64,000 nt of DNA from Monilinia fructicola (Eukaryota > Ascomycota > Leotiomycetes > Helotiales > Sclerotiniaceae): assembly GCA_008692225.1 (NCBI GenBank), contig VICG01000003.1, forward strand, positions 1,295,501-1,359,500, read 5' to 3'. Made by a program: the position numbers and the translations under genes. Shown here in pieces: positions 4,145-44,738 of the stretch (its first letter is position 1; every line of letters begins with the position of its first letter). Under the pieces are notes generated by a model that did no database searches, was not told where the DNA came from, and worked only from the letters and a program-made list of their open reading frames with translations.

Positions 4145-5108
4145 TACATAACATATATATATATATGTGTACTCCCTATATCCATTGGATATATTAGATA
4201 ATACAATAAACGCTTGTGCGACAGACTGATCAGTAAGGTTAGCGAATGAATAACGTTGAAATCTACAAGTAGATGTACGGAGTATCTCAGGTTCCAACTT
4301 CCAAGGTTGTTTGATTTTCTTCCCTTAAACCCCTTCTAGCATTTGAGTCGTCTATCTCTTGATCTCATTGGCATTGGATATTCGACATGAGATATCGACT
4401 TTTCATCTCTCCATCTCAATTTCTCTTGCGTCTAAGCCCCTTTGGGTATTAGATGGACTGGAATCAGGTTAGACTCCAGACCTCGATACCGTAGATACAG
4501 TAGTTGAATGCCTCTCCAGAATCCAGCTCAGTCGGGGACTCGGGGATGACTTGTAACTTTGCTCTAACGTTTTTAGCCACCACACCGAAGGAAACTTTCT
4601 CATTGCTATACCTACTTGCCCTATGTGTGTCTATACAAGCAACCAATCATTGATCCTCAAGTTAGCCTGCATTGGATGTACGAGTAGCTAGAGGGACCTA
4701 GGTACTTGTTAGGTAGACATGAGATTGATACTGACTGCAGGTGTGTCGTAGATATCTCTTTCATATTCTTCAACATCAACATCTCAATAGTCCCATTTGC
4801 TTAATCACGCTTTTTCTTTCCATTCATTTCATCTCCTCACAGCTCTCAGAAGACCAATCACCATCATCCATTCTCCACTCTCAAAGACCGACCCACTTAT
4901 CTCTCGACATTGAAAATTCAAAATTCCGCCAAATTCCACATCAAAGCCACCCACCAGTGAGTGCATCACCCACCATCCATCATCCACCACCCACACCAAT
5001 CCACTAGGCACATTTACTCTCGAGTCTCCAGTCTCTACGAAATATCCAACTTTAAGTATTATTATTCTTTTTATTATTATTATTATTGTATAGTATAGCA
5101 CAAGTGAG

Positions 5109-5880
<772 letters not shown>

Positions 5881-33675: not shown

Positions 33676-33684
33676 TTAAATAGA
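33676..33684 (+). repeat. Candidate target-site duplication, left copy
   Basis: TTAAATAGA, identical to 42577-42585. It stands 8 bp outside the left inverted repeat. Nine bp is the usual length for Mutator-like elements. Confidence 0.5.
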
Positions 33685-33692
33685 GAGTCGAC

Positions 33693-33719
33693 AGGTCGGA
33701 TGGACGTCCATCTGAGCTC
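33693..33719 (+). repeat. Left terminal inverted repeat (27 bp)
   Basis: Begins AGGTCGGATGG and ends CTGAGCTC; exact reverse complement of 42543-42569. Its centre GATGGACGTCCATC is itself a perfect 14-bp palindrome. Confidence 0.95.
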
Positions 33720-33899
33720 CCGTGTACTCGGAAAAACGTCGGGTGGACTAGTGGGGCGCGGCTGACCTTTTGCGAAATGGGTCCGCAACCTCTTCATAAT
33801 TTATGCAGAACGTCCGATCGTCGATCTCATTGAACAGTAGATTTGCGTGATTGAATTGATCGTACCTCTTCAATTGATTCTAATCATAGCCGTATGGAA

Positions 33900-33957
33900 A
33901 CGTTTAATAAACGTTTAATAAACGTAAACGTTTTTCAAAACGTTTCCAAAACGTTTA
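33900..33957. repeat. AAACGTTT palindrome cluster near the left end
   Basis: Five close copies of AACGTT-centred palindromes, several 11 bp apart, lie between the inverted repeat and gene A. Similar clusters fill introns of all three element genes (for example 34443-34470, 34622-34655, 35022-35110, 37505-37563, 39366-39410) and the right end (about 42293-42425). Confidence 0.9.
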
Positions 33958-34300
33958 TGCCCACCTAATTCTCAAATGTTATATGTCATCTATAAAGCAA
34001 AAAAGAGATTCGAGAATTAATTAATATTGCAAGCAACCTCAATTGAATCATTTATCTACCTTGATAATTAACGTTGTATCAATTCGAGTATTGCTTTTTT
34101 TCGTTTATATTATCTGATATTTCCCACCGAATTTTTATTCCAACTACAACTACTCTCGCTTACAACTTTTTTTTCGATCTCCCCATCAGTGCTCTATCAA
34201 TTCATTTAGAAATCACTTACTAAACGTTTTCAAAACGTTTAGAAAACGTTTACAAATCGATTTAAATTCTCACTTATAGATACTTGATTTTTTTTTCGAT

Positions 34301-35630
34301 ATGGCATCTGGACCTAATGCAACTGTGAATACTCTTGTTTATTCAACGAAGGATCAACAAGCAGACGCATATCTTCGTAGTAACCCTCGTCCCTCTGGAT
34401 GTTCTTTGTGGAAGTGTGATGAAGTAAGTGTTATTCAATCTCAAAACGTTTAATAAACGTTTATTAAACGTTTTCAAATCGCTTTTTGTAGTATATTTAT
34501 TAACATTTATTAATTATCTTAGAATGATGTTTATCAAGTGCCTGCGGGAGAAATATTTTGTCGTGCACCTTGGGGTCCACGCAATGAAATTTGTCCAAAA
34601 CTCGTATGTTATCATTGAATATAAACGTTTTCTAAACGTTTTCTAAACGTTTTCAAATCATTTAGATCAAATACAATGCTACCAACAATCTTCGTCTTCA
34701 TTTGAAGCAAAAACATTCGGATCTTTCGTTTGATAAGGGGAAAAAGGGTAGTACGAGAATGGTCAGTACTCATTATTAAATAATTTTTAAATAACTTTAG
34801 TATTGTTCTTTCTATTCGTTTTGAAAACGTTTTCTAATCGTTTTTTAAAACGTTTGCAGGAAGATCAAGCAGTCGCTCGGGAAGCATTCGCCCAATGCTA
34901 TCGTGCTCACCTTGAGTACGAGAAGTCAATTGGTGAAGTAAGACAAGAAACTGATGATAGATTGATCTCTCAAAACGTACGTGATCTCACTATTATTTTT
35001 TCAACCTTTTTGAAAGCATTTTATAAACGTTTTCTAATCATTTTTTAAACGTTTTCTAATCATTTTATAATCATTTTGAAAACGTTTTCTAAACGTTTAG
35101 AAAACGTTTTCACTTTCCAACATTTATTAATTTTATATGCAGAGTCATTTCTCTCCATCAAAGAAATTGCGAAAGAGAAAACGTGATGAACGCAATCACG
35201 AGCAAGCACGCGTTCGAGAGGAAGCAGAGCAAATTGCATCTGCTGGACCTTCTCGTGTGGTGAAAGATTGCCCTGTACGCAAGTATAAGGGAGCTATGAG
35301 AGTAAGTTTAAACGTTTTCAAAATGGTTAGAAAACGTTTAGAAAACGTTTATTAAACGTTTTCGAGATAAGTTAACTAACGTTTGCTAATTGTTTATCAA
35401 TTGTTTAGCCCAACGTAACGCGAATGCGAGCTGGCTGTGGGTTTAAACCCAATCAAAAATGTGATCATTGTGTTGCTGCTTCGCGTGATCGTTGTCCTGA
35501 TGTTAGTGCACAGGATTGGACTAACAATGGAGGTTGTATAATTCTTTTGAATTATAGGAAACCTTCAAATAGAGTCGACGATGTTGAAGATGAAGATGAA
35601 AACGATGATGAAGAGGGTAGTGTTGAATGA
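34301..35630 (+). CDS. Element accessory gene A: putative zinc-binding protein
   Basis: Function unknown. Six exons (34301-34423, 34523-34603, 34666-34761, 34860-34976, 35143-35301, 35409-35630) give an unbroken 265-aa protein; every intron is phase 0. The N-terminal part has KCDE..., EIFCRAPWG and LRLHLKQKH, a Cys/Cys...His/His spacing recalling BED or C2H2 fingers. The middle is charged and coiled-coil-like, with a basic patch (KKLRKRKRDERN). The end has a Cys cluster (CGFKPNQKCDHC...C) and an acidic tail. Exon 4 has the same length (117 nt) and a similar sequence to exon 4 of gene B. A DNA-binding role for the element is inferred from the fingers and the basic patch. Introns carry the AAACGTTT repeats. 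Confidence 0.7.
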
Positions 35631-36334
35631 GTTAGATTGGGATTTTCTTTATATTTGGGAAATATTCTTTTTGTTACTTCGAAATATTTTCAACTTGAAT
35701 CCGAAATGTTTTTTTAAACGTTTTCTAATCATTTTATAAACGTTTTCAAAACGTTTAGAAAACGTTTACACAAGCAATTTTTTCATATTAACGACCTTTA
35801 CGAATTCTTCAACTAGGTAGCATAATAATAAAAATATATGGTATTGAAAGAATTTTATTTAATAGTCATTTTGGTATGTATACAAATAAAGATCTCAGGT
35901 TAAATTCACCAATCTTATTATAAAGAAGTATTAAAAAATATTAATCAAACACTTATAAAATATCAAAACAATACTTATAGAGTACTATATAAACACTTAT
36001 ATAGCACCATACAAACACTAGAAATCATCGATCATAATATAAAAAAAAGACAAACAATATACCTACAAATTATTTAAAAAACGTTCTCTAATCATTTTCT
36101 AAACATTTCATAAACGTTTTCGAATCGTTTAATAAACGTTTTCTAAATGTTTTCTTTCTACATATCTCCTCAATCTCCATTGTTTAATTTACATTCTTCG
36201 GTCATGGATATACGTTTATCCTTTCGCTAAGATATCCACTTTATTTTTGTATTAAAACTATAGTATTTCCACATCGTGAATCGTTCATTCTCTCTTCTAA
36301 CTTTACTTTCAATCGTTTAAATCAAAAATACATT

Positions 36335-38161
36335 ATGTCTACTACTTACCCTTCGTCTTTTTCTCAACGACCAAATCATTGTCCTCCATATGAAGAGATC
36401 AAATGCAATGTAATGTTACCCTATTCTAAATCAATTCATTATTAATATATTTATAGGATTCGCAATGTACCAATAAATCAAAATGTGTTAAAAATCTACC
36501 CTGGGGAAAGGTTTTGTCGAGTTCAAATTGATGAAGATGGAGAATTGTGCACTACAAATGTATGTAACTCAATTCATTTCGAATTCATTTTCTAAACGTT
36601 TTTCAATCGTTTTCTAATCGTTTTCAAAACATTTCCAAATCGTTTTTGATTCGTTCTATAGCTAATTCTTGATCAGCATCAATATAAACAAACTAATGCT
36701 TTACTTCTACATTTGCGTAAAGTTCATAAAGAGGAAGTTCACTTTCATTCCGTTCAAGGTGTGTACCAAATACGGTATGTTGATTATTGATAAATAATTA
36801 TAATCAACCTTTTTTTTAATTTTATTCTTAATAGGCAATGAAAAATGCAGCATATAAGCATTTCAAAGCTGTATATGCTTATATTCAACAAAACACCAAA
36901 GAGAAAGATAAAAATATTGAAACTAATGATTCAATCAACGAATCGTCGAAGGTATCTATTAAAAAAACAATCCGAAAATGTTTTCAAAACGATTAGAAAA
37001 CGTTTTCAAAACGATTAGAAAACGTTTTCGAATCATTTTTCATACATTTTCTGATATCATTAAAATAGAATTCTCTACACTCAAAAAGCTCGAAGAGGAA
37101 ACCTCCTACTCGACGTAAATTGAATAAAAGTCGACAACAACAACGCGCTGAATCTCCAATACTTTCTAGTGGAGATCAAACTCAAGAATCAGGACCACCA
37201 GAACCAGAGATTCCTGCATCCCCTCAAGATAACATTCCAATCCCCTCAGAAATCGATTCGGAATCGACTTCAAAACGTTCTGAAAACGTTTTGACATCAC
37301 AGCCTACGGACCCTTCAACTACTACTACTTCTTCCTCTACATTAACACCACATTCAACAACACAACTACCTCAATCTGCTCCGAATCCTACTAGCAAAAC
37401 GTTAGAAAAGCGAAAAAATGATTCCTCTGAAGAGAATAGTACTAATAATCATGAAATAACAACTACTGAAAGTTCTATTCTAGTAAGAATTCTATTCAAA
37501 ACCTTTTGAAAACGTTTAAAAAACGTTTAAAAAACGTTTAAGAAACGTTTAAGAAACGTTTAAAAAAAGGTTTATGCTAACTTATACAAAAAAGAAAAAA
37601 CAACGAATCAATCCATCTACACAAAAATTTATTGATATTTGTAATGATATCGATAGTGCACATCCTCCCACTCCTCCTAAACTTACTGTAAGATTGTTCC
37701 GTTTATTTTTTCCCTCAGTTTGCTCGATGAAAGAATTCATTCTAATACGTTTCTTTATTATTATTAGCCAAATACTAGGCCTCGATTAGATACAAAGATG
37801 AGATGGAATGCAATTGGTGGACCATTCGATCTACCATATTATAATCATTTGCCCAACGTTACTGAAATGTTAAAAATGCTTAAAAGGAGCTCGAAATGTT
37901 GTATGAATTGTTCATCAAGACCATCAGGATGCAATCTTAAATATAAATCAGGGAAAAGCTGGAAGGTTTGCAAAAGTAAGTTGATATCTACTCAAATTGA
38001 AAACGTTTTGAAAGCATTTTCAAAACGTTTACTAAATGTTTTCAATAGAATGTCCATGTCCTAATTGGCATGCACCATATTTCGTATCTGATGCATGCGA
38101 TGATATTAGAATGTTTAAACAGCCTGTTGATGAGAATGGGAATATGATTTCGATTTCATAA
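36335..38161 (+). CDS. Element accessory gene B: divergent paralogue of gene A (one-base frame break)
   Basis: Function unknown. Eight likely exons: 36335-36409, 36457-36559, 36662-36760, 36835-36951, 37069-37482, 37595-37687, 37768-37975 and 38049-38161; nearly all introns are phase 0, as in gene A. Shared features with A are IKCN, YPGERFCRV (compare VPAGEIFCR), LLLHLRKVHKEE (compare LRLHLKQKHSD) and the 117-nt exon 4. Exon 2 is 103 nt; removing one A from the run at 36490-36494 restores the frame. Exon 3 ends at a weak GTGTAC donor; the better GTATGT at 36775 gives the wrong phase. A Ser/Thr/Pro-rich middle and a Cys-rich end (CCMNCSSRPSGC, CPCPNWH) follow. About 406 aa after correction. 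Confidence 0.6.
37505..37563. repeat. AAACGTTT array with exact 11-bp period
   Basis: Five consecutive copies in the intron between exons 5 and 6 of gene B, each unit AAACGTTTAAA or AAACGTTTAAG, so the CG dinucleotides recur every 11 bp. This is the most regular array in the element. Confidence 0.95.
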
Positions 38162-38499
38162 AACGAATAATACTGATACTGATGTTGATTCTGATGCTGG
38201 TAGTGGTAGTGGTAATGTTAGTGTTATTAGTATTAGTGGTAGTGGTAGTGGTAGTAGTAGTGTTAACACTACTAGTAGTGTAGGTGATAGTGATAATTAA
38301 ATAATTGATATTATTATTTTCAATCATTTATATATTGATCGTTATGTTCTAATATTATATATCAATCACTTTTGTAGAATTTAGGTTGAAAAATAGATCG
38401 CATTGCTATTCGAAATTGCTTTCTAAACGTTTAGAAAACGATTCGAAAACGTTTGATAAATGAATTGCTCTTAAAATAAAATAAACTACTAGGAATTTA

Positions 38500-41400
38500 T
38501 CATTGCTTTTGAAGTGATATTATGTACATTGTAGTTCCCTGATTTCTCGATCCCTTCGTGCTATTTCTATTTGTCTTTCTTTTGAGTTCCAATTCCTTAT
38601 TTGCAAGTTGTATTCTTAAATCAGCTTGTCTGACTGATTCTTCCAATGTAGCAGTTATATTGCTTTGTTGTTGTTGTATTGGAACAGATTGCTGTCTACG
38701 TGATCTTCTTATTCTAGGTGGTCGGCCGCTACTACTATGATTATAATCAGAATTAGATAATTGAGAAGATTGATGATGAATCTGTTGCTCTTCAGGAATA
38801 TCGTCAGATAACAACAGATTGTTTTCTTGTGCAAATTGTTGATTCTTCTTTTGTTTTAATACTAAATGAATTATTAGCGAATGGAATTAAATCATTTAGA
38901 AACGTTTAGAAAACGTTTAGAAAACGTTTTCTAAACGTTTATTAAACGTTTATCATTAGATTAAAATACTCACAACTTCTTTTTCGCCTTTCATTTATTC
39001 GATCATACACAGAACGACCTCGCCATGAGTTTGTAACCCCTAATATTGCATTATCTCGACCACCAAAATTGATTCGAAGATCATGCTTTCGCCCTCTAGT
39101 AAATAATTGTTAGATTGATAGTAAAACGTTTAGAAAACGTTTTGAAAACGTTTAAAAAACACTTACTTTTCGATCGAAATAGCTAATGATAACGCTTTGC
39201 CATAACGATTAGTTTGAGCTCCGCTTGCCTCTACTGCATTTGTATTTCGAATGCAATTTCGAAATGTTGCTTTATATCCCCTAAAAAGAATTGCTCGTTT
39301 AAACCCGAAAATAATCCAATCCCATTCTTTATGAGTGCACCATCCCATCATATCTGGACTTAAAAATAAAACTGTTAATAAACGTTTTCTAAACGTTTTC
39401 TAAACGTTTAAAGATAGAGACGTGAAAACCTACTAATCCTGTCGAACACATTCTAATAATGCATAGCAATCGTTTTTTGATTTTGCAATACTTATATCTT
39501 TTAGAAGACCTGCATAACCATCATTTGCAATGATACTATTATCAATTCCTCTTTGATAATGTACCAAGCAATAAATCATAGTAGATTGAATGTGAAATTG
39601 CCATGGACGATGCTGTGGATCAATATCACTTAAGAAACAACCCCAACCTAAATCATTATTGATATATTAGTTTAAAAATTCGTTGAATATTGATTAAACG
39701 TTTTCTAAACGTTTAAAAAACGTTTTCTAAACGTTTAGAAAATGAAATTTGCTTACCATTTGCTTGTTTTGCACACACATATCCACCACAATTGCTTTAA
39801 TTCCATTCCCATGAATATGATGAAAGTGAAGAGGTGGTTGATCAGCATTTTCCAATGCTTCATTAATACATCGATACCAATTTTTGAAAAGTTGGTAGAA
39901 ACCCTCAGCAGTTTCAACGTCGGTATATACCCGTGAAAGCTGAGTTACTATAAAATGGTTAATATATAATCAAAAAACATTTATAAAGTATTTTCGAAGT
40001 GAATATACTACATACATTGATCAATGTTTTCTTGCTCTATATATTGAGCAAAAATGACTTCACGCCATTTGCCAGCTGTACGTTTATAACTGGTATCTAT
40101 TTGAAAAGTATCGAGATTTTTCAAATATAATGCTTGATCCAAATAAAAACAATGAATTTCTCGACGATCACCATAATTATACATTCGTCGAATGTATTGT
40201 TGTGTTCCGAATTTATTGTAATGATTAGCTCTATAATCATACCATACACCTAATAATATTAGTTAATAGATTTGAAAACGTTTAGAAAACGTTTAGAAAA
40301 ACGTTTATTAAACGTTTTGAATATATTACTTACCAGCCCATTCAACACCGTAAGGATACCTATCAATCTGTTCCAGCATTGCGATTGCTTGAATTTTTGA
40401 TTTGTTATTCCATGCAGGATGTGCATTCATTAACTGCTCGATATTCAACTCTTGACAGAGTCGATTCATTCCTTCACTTGCAATGATATCACCTACAAAT
40501 TGCATTAATTTTTCGTTTTTCTTGTTAAATAAATATAAAATATAAATTATAAATTACTTACAATACCCACGTCCAAAGTTGATAAAGTTTTTAACTCGAT
40601 CAACAATTAATTCAGTTAATAAAGCAGGACTTCGGGATGGTGGTGGAGGCACATGTGTATGTTCACCGTGAGAAGTGATCAGAATATAAGGGTGGTCTTG
40701 AAGATCGATTGGAACAATGATATTGAATGTTACATCGCATTCAATACGTTGCAATGGTTGATTTCCATCATGATGAGGAACACCTAAAAAACTATTAATA
40801 AATAAGATACAAAAACGAGTTGAAAACGATGTGAAAAACGATTTAAAAACGTTTTGAAAACGTTTTCAATATAAGTTAAAAATGAGTTAAAAATGAGTTA
40901 AAAATGAGTTAAGTTAGAATAGAAGTTGAAGACGTACCACAATCACTTCGACGTGTTTGAGTACCAAATACTTGAAAGCATTCAGATGGTTGATTAGGGT
41001 GAAATCCGTAAGTTAATAAATCCATCATATATTCCCAATTGATTGGTCTTGTTGGATTGATAGTATGATAATAATGTTGAAAGAATTCATTATTATTAGT
41101 TATTTTATTGCAGCATATATAATAACGTGCATCACCATTGAAGTTCTAATCAAAAATCAGCTTCAACACACTTCGAAAACGTTTTTAAAACGTTTAGAAT
41201 GTGATTAAACTTACTGTAGTATTGAAATGTCGAACTTCTGGTACTCCATCGCATAGTATTGTCTCCCCAGTATTAGGATCAATTTTGTAGAATCCACAGC
41301 CATACTTTTCAAAATGCTTTTTAACTGTATGATAAGTTCTAAAGAGGATGAGTTAGAAAATAGTAATAAAAAACGTATTCTAAACGTTTTCGAAATATTT

Positions 41401-42220
41401 TCAAAACGTTTTCATAATGATACATACGTTAATGTTTCTTTTTGTCCCAAACCAGCATTATATTCCTCAGCAAAAACACGTTGACTAGAATGTGTTCGAA
41501 TCCGTTTGTCTTCCCAATCGCTTGATGTCCAACTAGTATGCGAACTAGAAATATAATTTGATGCATGAAGACATGCATTTATTCCGCTGCATTTTTTGAT
41601 TGTACGTTTAACCTGAATACCTCCCATCCAATGTGAAATGGTAGTTTTCCTGTGAAGTGATCGATTTGTATGTGTTGAATATTGAATCTAATTATAATTT
41701 ATTAACAAAATGCTTTAAAAATGCTTTAAAAATGCTTTCGAAACGTTTTCTAAATGGTTTCTAAACGTTTTGAAAACATTTAGGATATACATACCTTTGA
41801 ACATACTTTATCTGCTTGCTCAGGTGTCAATTCATGTACATTGATTAAATTGCCAATTCCTCGTTCTGAAGTAGGGGGATATAATGGGCAATCAATCACA
41901 TAATTGATTTGTTCAACACTTAATGGTTCTTGTGCTCTATCTGAAAGTAGAAATATTGGATTCTCTTGAAGATTATCTATTGCTTCCTATTTATAAACGA
42001 TTAGAAAACGTTTTAGAAACGAGTTAAAAATGTGTTCAAATAATCTTACTTGAATATTTTCATCCAAAGGATATAATTCTGGTAGTTCATCCTCAACAAT
42101 TCTTCTTCCAACTAATTCGGTATCCCAATTAGAATATAAATGTTCTCCTTCTGGTAGGGTGATACCTAATTCGTGTATTGTAGCAAGACAAGAACGACGT
42201 AACCAAGTGATAGGATGCAT
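38500..42220 (-). CDS. Transposase-like protein of the element (Mutator-like, tentative; one base short)
   Basis: Thirteen exons can be chained by good GT...AG sites: 42220-42050, 41986-41795, 41687-41428, 41338-41215, 41145-40938, 40783-40562, 40492-40334, 40249-40016, 39947-39757, 39647-39434, 39358-39167, 39095-38974 and 38861-38500. Order of motifs: an N-terminal Cys/His region (CSGINACLHA), ITSHGEHTHVPPPP, a first acidic site in FQIDTSYKR, a second in IVVDMC, then YCLVHYQRGI, and a C-terminal Glu in NTNAVEASGAQTNRYGK. This resembles the D...D...C-x2-H...E order of Mutator-like DDE enzymes. The exon 9/10 junction is one base short (ATG/GTAAGC where an extra G is needed). Corrected length is about 883 aa. 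The C-terminus is Gln/Arg-rich. Confidence 0.65.
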
Positions 42221-42542
42221 TTTGAAAAGAGAACAATAAATGAAAGAAAGAAAGGAAAAATCTATAAATGAAAGGAATAAGAATCATTATTTAAACGTTT
42301 TCGAAATGTTTTCTAAACGTTTGATAAACGTGTTAAAAAAAGATAAATAAATACGGTGGTTGGGAGTGGATCAATTGTATAATAATGCTATCTAAATGTT
42401 TTCTAAACGTTTTCGAAACGTTTAGAACTACGATGTGGATCCATATTGCACAAAGTTATGAATTCGGCAAAAGGTCGGGTGGACCTGCGCGACGTTTTGC
42501 GGTTGACCTTTTTTTTTTAAGTGATGCCCCACAGGTCCATAT

Positions 42543-42569
42543 GAGCTCAGATGGACGTCCATCCGACCT
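42543..42569 (-). repeat. Right terminal inverted repeat (27 bp)
   Basis: Exact reverse complement of 33693-33719. Inside it lie a run of T and the segment GTCGGGTGGAC, also found inside the left end in the same orientation. Confidence 0.95.
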
Positions 42570-42576
42570 ACATACC

Positions 42577-42585
42577 TTAAATAGA
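42577..42585 (+). repeat. Candidate target-site duplication, right copy
   Basis: TTAAATAGA, matching 33676-33684. It is 7 bp outside the right inverted repeat, so exact element borders remain uncertain. Confidence 0.5.
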
Positions 42586-43279: not shown

Positions 43280-44738
43280 ATGCCACCAAGGAGATCTCAT
43301 AAGAAGTCCAAAGCGGGATGTCAAAGATGCAAACACAGGAAGATCAAGGTAACCAGTCAGAACGAGTGGTATCGAGAAGATACAATGGGTATTTGCTAAT
43401 TTGGAGTCAGTGTGATGAAAAACATCCTTTATGTGGAAATTGCAAAAAGCATGGTCCGTATATCTTGACGAGAAATGAAACCCGATATTTTGATATTGAT
43501 ATGAAATAGGAGTTTCCTGTGACTTTGGTGATAATCCACTATCACCTGATTCACCATCATTCCGACCTCCAACTTTGCTTCATCAAACTTCAGAAGAGTC
43601 TGTTGCCCATATCTCATCGCCCGCTTCGACCAATTCTTCAATACTTCCATTACATCAATCGCCTATGCAAGCCATCAAAACTGCTAATCATCCAGTACAT
43701 GATCGAGCACTCGAGCTCAAACTGATGCACCATTACACGGCAACGACCTCGAAAACACTATCTAATGATGAAAGCCAAGAAGCTGCGTGGTCAATAAACG
43801 TGCCAGCAATCGCTTATAATTATCCATTTCTCATGGACGCAATCCTGGCTGTGTCTGCTCTACACTTGCGTATATTACAGCCCGAGGATCGAAGCCTCGT
43901 ACGCGCTTCACATAGCTATATGGCTTCAGCAATTGCTCAATATTCTTCTCTTTTAAACAAAGGGCCATCTGAAAACAATGCAGAGGCACTTTTTTGTACC
44001 GCTGCTCTTATTGCTTTTCAAGCATCAGCATCCCGTTGTGTTGAGAATGGAATTGACGGCGATTCTGATAGCGCTTACGTTTTCCCACTCGCTTGGTTTC
44101 ATTCTTTCCAAGGGGTGAAGACAGTCGTGATAACTTCCTGGCAGTGGCTACGAAGTTCCGAAAAAATATTTCCCATCATCAACGGTCAACCTCCATTAGT
44201 ACTGGATCCCGATCCAGAACGTCGAGGTTTCTTTGCTCCCTTGCTCGAAGGCCTAGAGCACGAATCAATCTCCCTTGATGCCGCTCTGGACGCGGATACA
44301 AAGCGGGCATATAAACATGCTGTTGCTATGCTCAATTGGGCGCATCAAAAACCTGAACGAGCCCGAATTCTTGGTTTTGCAGCTACCGTGTCACGTCGCT
44401 ACATTGAGCTCTTGCGGCAATCCGATCCTCGCGCTTTAGTTATTGCAGCATGTTTCTTTGCCATGACCCGTATCGTTGATGATATCTGGTGGCTTCAAGG
44501 CGTCGCCAAAAGAGAAGTGACAGGAATTTTTGGCTTATTGCCGGAAGAGTGGTGGCCGAAGATGGATTGGCCAATGCGAATTGCAAATTTTGAGGGGATG
44601 CTTGATGAGGATACATGGGGTGCTTGTTGGCATTCTGAGGGTACGCCAAAGCCGGAAGAAGGGTTCAATGGCAGCCTGGTCTCGCATATCGACATGCTGG
44701 CACAAATTTTGAATCGAACTGCACCACCACCAGATTGA
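43280..44738 (+). CDS. Zn2Cys6 transcription factor, Upc2-like family
   Basis: Nuclear fungal regulator. Three exons: 43280-43348, 43411-43453 and 43510-44738 (introns 62 and 56 nt; the second has a GTCCGT donor). The binuclear zinc cluster is spread over all three: CQRCKHRKIK, then CDEKHPLCGNC, then VSCDF, giving the C-x2-C-x6-C-x5+-C-x2-C-x-C pattern, with a basic lead-in MPPRRSHKKSKAG. The rest (446 aa in all) has the middle-homology-like core of the sterol-uptake regulator type: LMHHYTATTSKTL, then WSINVPAIAYNYPFLMDAIL and AVSALHLR. Target genes are not known. The gene lies about 700 bp from the transposon's right end. Confidence 0.9.

Follow-up and report, generated by a model that had tools for sequence, protein, structure and literature searches.

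Within a 64,000-nucleotide stretch of the Monilinia fructicola genome (GenBank assembly GCA_008692225.1, contig VICG01000003.1, positions 1,295,501 to 1,359,500; hereafter the window), we analyzed an 8.9-kb transposable element whose non-coding DNA is filled with one perfect 8-letter palindrome, AAACGTTT. The palindromes are set mostly on an 11-bp lattice, in 27 arrays when single sites are counted, and they persist in other copies of the element, including copies without genes. We propose that a protein encoded by the element probably binds the arrays as tandem sites, with a role like that of the anti-silencing VANC proteins of Arabidopsis VANDAL transposons, a role as accessory sites in transposition, or both.

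All 76 exact copies of AAACGTTT in the window fall between positions 33685 and 42576, and the remaining 55 kb hold none. In 100 dinucleotide shuffles of the window, the mean was 1.13 copies and the maximum 5. The hexamer AACGTT, which the initial annotation had suggested counting inside and outside the element, occurs 88 times in the window, with 82 occurrences inside and 6 in the other 55,108 bp. Using spliced models of the three genes made in this analysis, we found 75 of the 76 exact sites to be non-coding: 55 lie in introns of genes A, B and C, and 20 lie in spacers and subterminal DNA. The sole exonic site, at 37284, belongs to a gene B exon of low complexity. The non-coding part of the element spans 4,216 bp, for which base composition predicts 0.18 copies; AAACGTTT is its commonest 8-mer, and the next palindromes occur 4 times each. 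At least one exact copy is present in 19 of the 24 introns, and none in the other 5. Each unit contains one CpG, and the motif accounts for 75 of the 171 non-coding CpGs of the element. The initial annotation had described dozens of palindromes in introns, spacers and subterminal DNA, flanking DNA free of them, and near-absence from exons except in the low-complexity part of gene B. These counts confirm that description, and the pattern is stronger than reported.

The phasing of the palindrome is a new fact that the annotation had overlooked. Among 49 neighbor spacings shorter than 60 bp in the window copy, 34 are 11 bp, 10 are 22 bp and 1 is 33 bp, with the other 4 at 12, 17 or 23 bp. Most units with a single change are likewise 11, 22 or 33 bp away from an exact unit. 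Genome-wide, pairs of AAACGTTT at spacings of 10, 11 and 12 bp number 6, 481 and 48, respectively, and 457 of the 481 pairs at 11 bp fall in the 41 family copies described below, leaving 24 outside. Array starts are a median of 315 bp apart in seven full copies, and each of the three start codons has arrays upstream. Inspection of copy L036 by eye showed the 27 arrays to share no flanks beyond degenerate units, and thus they are not one repeat copied together with its surroundings.

We then consider the element across the 44.03-Mb assembly of 20 contigs. The copy set consists of 41 two-ended copies: ten of full length, the window's included, and 31 without genes, the latter being every facing pair of terminal inverted repeats (TIRs) less than 2.5 kb apart among the matches listed. 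Eight of the nine further full copies were paired by TIR, and L042 was found through gene C. Seven full copies, again including the window's, are 99.86-99.98% identical in aligned positions. The palindrome persists in all 41 copies, a check that the annotation had proposed, with 49-78 exact sites per full copy and 4-21 per gene-less copy, and the distance from an end to its outermost motif is always 137-248 bp on one side and 144-191 bp on the other. Together these copies make up 120.7 kb, or 0.27% of the genome, yet they hold 1032 of its 2050 AAACGTTT, a density about 370-fold higher than in the genome remainder (about 1,018 in 43.9 Mb); the same letters read backwards occur 1,506 times genome-wide. 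Neither of the conditions that the annotation had named as refuting its observation was borne out, the density being compared with the whole rest of the genome. At seven single-end loci, a sample that leaves out ten 1-mismatch matches and one 2-mismatch palindromic match, motifs were nearby in five and absent from L074 and L077, which look truncated or internally deleted. At C11:101283-111148, gene-less copy L063 and full copy L039 are separated by about 110 bp.

The borders given in the initial annotation are matched exactly by the flanking duplication TTAAATAGA. When we tested the best of four border offsets per copy, the border 9-mer was duplicated with 0-1 mismatch in 34 of the 41 copies (13 perfect 9-mers and 21 with one mismatch), compared with 0 of 328 shifted control offsets given the same treatment. 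The mismatch is often at the first base, and therefore the target site duplication is 8-9 bp. The inner 24 bp of the TIR has 137 genome matches at up to 3 mismatches, of which 100 were listed. The inverted repeat itself holds a palindrome with an ACGT core common to the motif (ATGGACGTCCAT), plus GAGCTC.

Mutator-like elements (MULEs) have a target site duplication of 8-11 bp and TIRs, though TIRs are absent from some MULEs. The present element has an 8-9-bp duplication and a 27-bp TIR, which suggest a resemblance to MULEs. MULEs also encode a transposase with the MULE DDE domain. Neither the gene C part nor its annotated relative P0005 has a Pfam match to any transposase, and the PF10551 profile has no match anywhere in the genome at E 0.001. 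By eye, gene C gives the impression of a D...D...C-x2-H...E residue order, which we take to be like that of Mutator transposases. The Mutator-like label of the initial annotation thus stands for the ends and target site and not for the domain test, and we do not file the element among MULEs. A Pfam match of gene C to DH_ALS2 (E 2.3e-5) was below the family cut-off and was judged spurious.

The element carries three intron-rich genes with 24 introns in total. The gene A product has 95% identity to a protein annotated in M. fructicola, and the gene B record from another copy (P0002) continues to the equivalent of about 38300. A and B, the latter represented by fused gene model P0004, resemble each other over one stretch, in which Cys and His residues are conserved (FCR...C...LHL..H; 14 of 37 residues). 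A Pfam scan of A and B found no family above cut-off, and a PDB search with P0001 returned chance-level matches only. The window copies of gene B, in its coding part, and of gene C carry small private insertions. Private 1-3-bp insertions are scattered in the coding DNA of single copies and look like assembly errors, so single-copy reading frames offer no basis for judgement.

Copies that are about 99.9% identical differ in array length. Relative to most full copies, an array of the window copy is 22 bp shorter, L037 is 43 bp (20+11+12) and 12 bp shorter, and L039 is 11 bp longer; all four changes are within arrays. Seven other insertions of 4-7 bp, which are not whole units, occur in the window copy (three), L038 (three) and L042 (one), and six of them lie outside arrays.

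Three full copies differ from the majority almost entirely by C>T and G>A substitutions (1451/1451 in L041, 1225/1228 in L042 and 288/288 in L034). In each, CpA is the most-mutated context, the pattern of repeat-induced point mutation (RIP), which the remaining seven full copies, among them that of the window, do not show. The three copies make up an almost pure RIP series, for which the same genome supplies an unmutated reference. RIP is reported for M. fructicola transposons in PMC8959702; it accounts for decay of copies, not for arrays. In L041 and L042, CpA was mutated at 0.65 and 0.53, and CpG, CpT and CpC at 0.34-0.51 outside the motif, and RIP was weaker over the last tens of bp toward the ends of the element. 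Motif CpGs in these two copies were mutated in 68 of 308 cases versus 420 of 848 for other CpGs.

We considered this difference as the footprint of a bound protein. CpGs outside arrays were mutated in 339 of 656 cases (0.52), AAACG outside arrays in 10 of 40 (0.25; Fisher p 0.69), WWWCGWWW outside arrays in 23 of 76 (p 0.14), and AACGTT outside the full 8-mer in 13 of 24. The C or G positions beside motifs in array zones were mutated in 458 of 919 cases versus 2099 of 4185 elsewhere. A context model trained outside arrays expected 0.35 at the motif, compared with 0.22 observed, and simpler models expected 0.37 to 0.52. With these results, we conclude that motif CpGs are less mutated mainly because of their sequence context, although a small extra protection beyond context may exist. 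RIP attacks the motif poorly, and this helps the arrays to persist. Among the genome matches listed for other transposon families, stops were present in 10 of 10 for DDE_1 and in 15 of 16 for RVT_1, the sole stop-free RVT_1 match being short, in comparison with seven near-identical RIP-free copies of the palindrome element. These families therefore offered no intact reference and no simple control for RIP context.

By best BLAST matches, what most gene-less copies have in common with the full element is limited to the arrays, some 64 bp of one end and at least about 120 bp of the other; L058 has the 64-bp end on both sides. Outside the motifs, the interior of the gene-less copies, counted from 125 bp inside each end, has a G+C content of 4-9% in 29 of the 31. 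The exceptions, L061 (0.23) and L069 (0.15), both have extra central DNA. Measured from the outer edges of the 24-bp TIR core, the first motif is reached after 137-193 bp at one end and 151-191 bp at the other, and L051 and L052 carry internal arrays 250-390 bp apart. Best matches among the gene-less copies range from about 70 to 99.5% identity. In 18 aligned copies, C/G retention was 0.88 in the 23 motif columns versus 0.66 in 25 other interior columns, and in five copies of 1.1 kb it was 1.00 in motif columns and 0.99 in the interior. Reduced to ends, arrays and nearly pure A/T, gene-less copies would offer RIP few targets. With their GC-rich ends, arrays and A/T, they illustrate how a parasite reduced in a RIP host can look. 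As a separate observation, L061:710-2150 and L069:750-2230 have common central DNA with GGCCGAAATGG / CCATTTCGGCC-type repeats, perhaps another inserted repeat.

Several features led us to favor binding by an element protein: the palindrome itself, its phasing, its near-exclusivity to the family, its coverage of the element, its persistence in all 31 gene-less copies, and the presence of two paralogous Cys/His-rich proteins. Together with a layout and an array turnover like those of VANC21 targets, these features suggest that an element protein binds the arrays, and the binder is probably the zinc-finger-like product of gene A or that of the paralogous gene B. A perfect palindrome would suit a symmetric dimer, and with units mostly every 11 bp, bound dimers would sit near one helix face and could pack side by side. 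With an array about every 315 bp, bound protein would span the whole element while leaving coding sequence nearly untouched. Such a coat would keep chromatin open against host silencing by DNA methylation or heterochromatin, as VANC does for VANDAL, and open chromatin would keep the genes and ends of the element usable. Subterminal arrays may also guide transposase to the ends, which would explain motifs about 140-190 bp inside each end of gene-less copies. Both roles may hold, the internal arrays being better explained by anti-silencing and the subterminal ones by help to the transposase. A more specific version, by analogy with VANC, is a tentative one that we hold to be less probable: an independently evolved fungal counterpart in which a zinc-finger protein polymerizes on the phased arrays and coats the transposon against silencing, with gene-less copies exploiting the protein in trans.

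Other results weigh against binding by an element protein. The best Pfam finger match of A is zf-BED at E 0.11, which is below cut-off, and structure prediction gave a mean pLDDT (confidence score) of 40 for P0005 and 42 for P0001, so low that the models were not used. Protein searches with A and parts of C returned M. fructicola records only (the search needs shared 5-residue words, and remote relatives could escape it). P0005 matched only the ten full copies among the best candidates scored in the genome, with no diverged relative of C at E 1. The RIP footprint was rejected as evidence, since AAACG is spared equally outside arrays. The gene-less copies share descent, and thus the constant position of their arrays may be inherited rather than selected, and their retention gap is about the size that the sequence-context effect predicts (hand calculation). 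The array-length differences could partly be assembly errors, and the values 43 and 12 bp each miss a whole number of units by one base. The initial annotation had offered binding sites for an element-encoded protein as one explanation; this is still the best reading, supported in part by phasing, the palindrome, arrays in most non-coding segments, gene-less copies and the A and B proteins.

One alternative is that transposase, or A or B, binds the arrays solely to join the element ends, as subterminal repeats do in Ac/Ds and En/Spm, without anti-silencing. The outermost motif is near both ends in all 41 two-ended copies, and most gene-less copies retain little besides ends and arrays, as accessory sites would have it; we nevertheless consider a purely accessory role rather unlikely, because it leaves unexplained some 25 further arrays across the 8.9-kb copies, the occupation of 19 of 24 introns, and the internal arrays of gene-less L051 and L052. 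Our preference for element-protein binding covers either role and hence overlaps with the weight given to this alternative. A passive minisatellite, in which an 11-bp unit grows by slippage where coding constraint is absent and outlives RIP since AAACG is a poor substrate, is improbable. It agrees with the lower mutation of AAACG than of all CpG outside arrays in the two RIP copies and with the variation in unit number among near-identical copies, but slippage extends arrays and cannot seed one palindrome in 27 places, and neither the near-confinement of 11-bp pairs to the family nor the regular arrays of seven copies without RIP fits it.

Instead, the element might have recruited the arrays as enhancer, insulator or nucleosome-excluding DNA, in which case they would bind a protein of the host or serve as one of its chromatin or methylation signals. 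A CpG in every unit and arrays upstream of three start codons would suit such a factor; against it, the roughly 1,018 AAACGTTT elsewhere compare with 1,506 backwards-letter sites genome-wide, and the 24 pairs at 11 bp outside the 41 copies give no sign that the host uses arrays elsewhere. We regard host recruitment as a little less probable still than passive growth. A role in RNA, such as hairpins between palindromes that aid intron splicing, is very improbable: 55 sites are intronic, but 20 lie outside genes, gene-less copies have arrays, and 5 of 24 introns have none. Element-protein binding therefore remains the reading we prefer.

Table. Features of the palindrome-bearing element in the window (positions are those of the window; units are exact copies of the palindrome).
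Feature	Position	Strand	Description
Whole element	33685..42576	.	8,892 bp; TIRs and flanking 9-bp duplication TTAAATAGA
Left target site duplication	33676..33684	.	TTAAATAGA
Right target site duplication	42577..42585	.	TTAAATAGA
Left terminal inverted repeat	33693..33719	+	AGGTCGGATGGACGTCCATCTGAGCTC, 27 bp
Right terminal inverted repeat	42543..42569	-	27 bp
Gene A	34301..35630	+	6 exons, 265 aa, Cys/His-rich, weak zf-BED-like stretch
Gene B	36335..38161	+	about 8 exons; resembles A over FCR..C..LHL..H stretch
Gene C	38500..42220	-	13 exons; putative transposase; annotated relative P0005
Array 1	33898..33956	.	left subterminal; 5 exact units
Array 2	34222..34251	.	upstream of gene A; 3 units
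Array 3	34444..34473	.	intron A1; 3 units
Array 4	34623..34652	.	intron A2; 3 units
Array 5	34825..34855	.	intron A3; 2 units
Array 6	35025..35109	.	intron A4; 5 units
Array 7	35310..35361	.	intron A5; 4 units
Array 8	35716..35767	.	A-B spacer; 4 units
Array 9	36112..36141	.	upstream of gene B; 2 units
Array 10	36594..36601	.	intron B2; 1 exact unit and degenerate neighbors
Array 11	36998..37027	.	intron B4; 2 units; 22 bp shorter than majority of full copies
Site 12	37284..37291	.	low-complexity exon of gene B; only exonic exact copy
Array 13	37510..37561	.	intron B5; 5 units
Array 14	38001..38030	.	intron B7; 2 units
Array 15	38425..38454	.	B-C spacer; 2 units
Array 16	38900..38951	.	gene C intron; 5 units
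Array 17	39124..39153	.	gene C intron; 3 units
Array 18	39380..39409	.	gene C intron; 3 units
Array 19	39696..39736	.	gene C intron; 4 units
Array 20	40276..40317	.	gene C intron; 4 units
Array 21	40847..40865	.	gene C intron; 2 units
Array 22	41177..41195	.	gene C intron; 2 units
Array 23	41382..41411	.	gene C intron; 2 units
Array 24	41741..41770	.	gene C intron; 2 units
Array 25	42006..42013	.	gene C intron 1; 1 exact unit
Array 26	42293..42322	.	upstream of gene C; 2 units
Array 27	42405..42423	.	right subterminal; 2 units

Two other features of the window lie outside the element. Positions 5050-5850 hold a long microsatellite with no relation to the element, made of roughly 800 bp of ATT/TTA triplet repeats, and the 1-kb bin there has 12% G+C. 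At 43280-44738 is a gene for a transcription factor of Zn(II)2Cys6 type (MPPRRSHKKSKAGCQRCKHRKIKV; family assigned by eye), whose apparent start is about 700 bp past the right end of the element.

In the open-access literature searched, we found neither this element nor any fungal transposon with phased palindrome arrays described. There was nothing on the element under Monilinia with Mutator, or under an 11-bp palindrome in Monilinia transposons, and of 35 papers containing the letters AAACGTTT, none of the 20 whose titles were listed concerns a fungal transposon. A paper on TET/JBP (PMC12730594) lacks the terms MULE, Mutator and Monilinia.

Repeated short subterminal sites just inside both ends, bound by an element protein, are known from Ac/Ds and En/Spm; those sites are near the ends only, whereas the Monilinia arrays run throughout the element. 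A second comparison is with Mutyl, a Mutator-like element of the yeast Yarrowia lipolytica. According to PMC6446971, Mutyl has a 9-10-bp target site duplication and a second open reading frame, mutB, that is given a DNA-binding role, although the text and table of that paper disagree on the orientation of mutB. Mutyl thus resembles the Monilinia element in its ascomycete host, similar target site duplication and extra reading frame, but differs in its 22-bp TIR and C2H2 finger (table of PMC6446971), and motif arrays are not mentioned in the part available.

The annotation had stated that no known Mutator-like element of this design came to mind, but a transposon of this design is known, namely Arabidopsis VANDAL with its VANC target arrays. 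PMC5735166 describes the VANC21 motif YAGTATTAY in VANDAL elements, where it forms dense tandem arrays in introns, in intergenic regions and in the non-coding DNA of the ends; this density is unique to the element, and a VANC21 chromatin immunoprecipitation signal is reported from these regions as well. The paper also describes turnover of the target arrays by tandem-repeat gain and loss between copies, and, with PMC10398659, removal of silent marks by VANC along the whole element. VANDAL elements encode extra open reading frames beside transposase (PMC6446971). The Monilinia element is like VANDAL/VANC in layout: it has dense short-motif arrays in non-coding DNA that are rare elsewhere, and array gain or loss between close copies (22, 43, 12 and 11 bp, assembly error being possible). 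It shares with VANDAL21/Hiun and VANDAL6 the motif arrays in non-coding DNA, the turnover of units and the proteins beside transposase. They differ in that VANDAL motifs have one orientation, whereas the Monilinia motif reads the same on both strands and recurs on an 11-bp lattice; in that binding and demethylation are demonstrated for VANDAL and proposed for the Monilinia element; and in the host, which is Arabidopsis in one case and an ascomycete with RIP in the other. To our knowledge, sequence-specific anti-silencing by a transposon is well demonstrated in one plant group only. The palindrome at 11-bp spacing offers a simple, testable site, in a host whose RIP defence writes its action into DNA, and if our reading is true, a fungal case with the same layout in such an unrelated host would mean that this anti-silencing strategy arises repeatedly.

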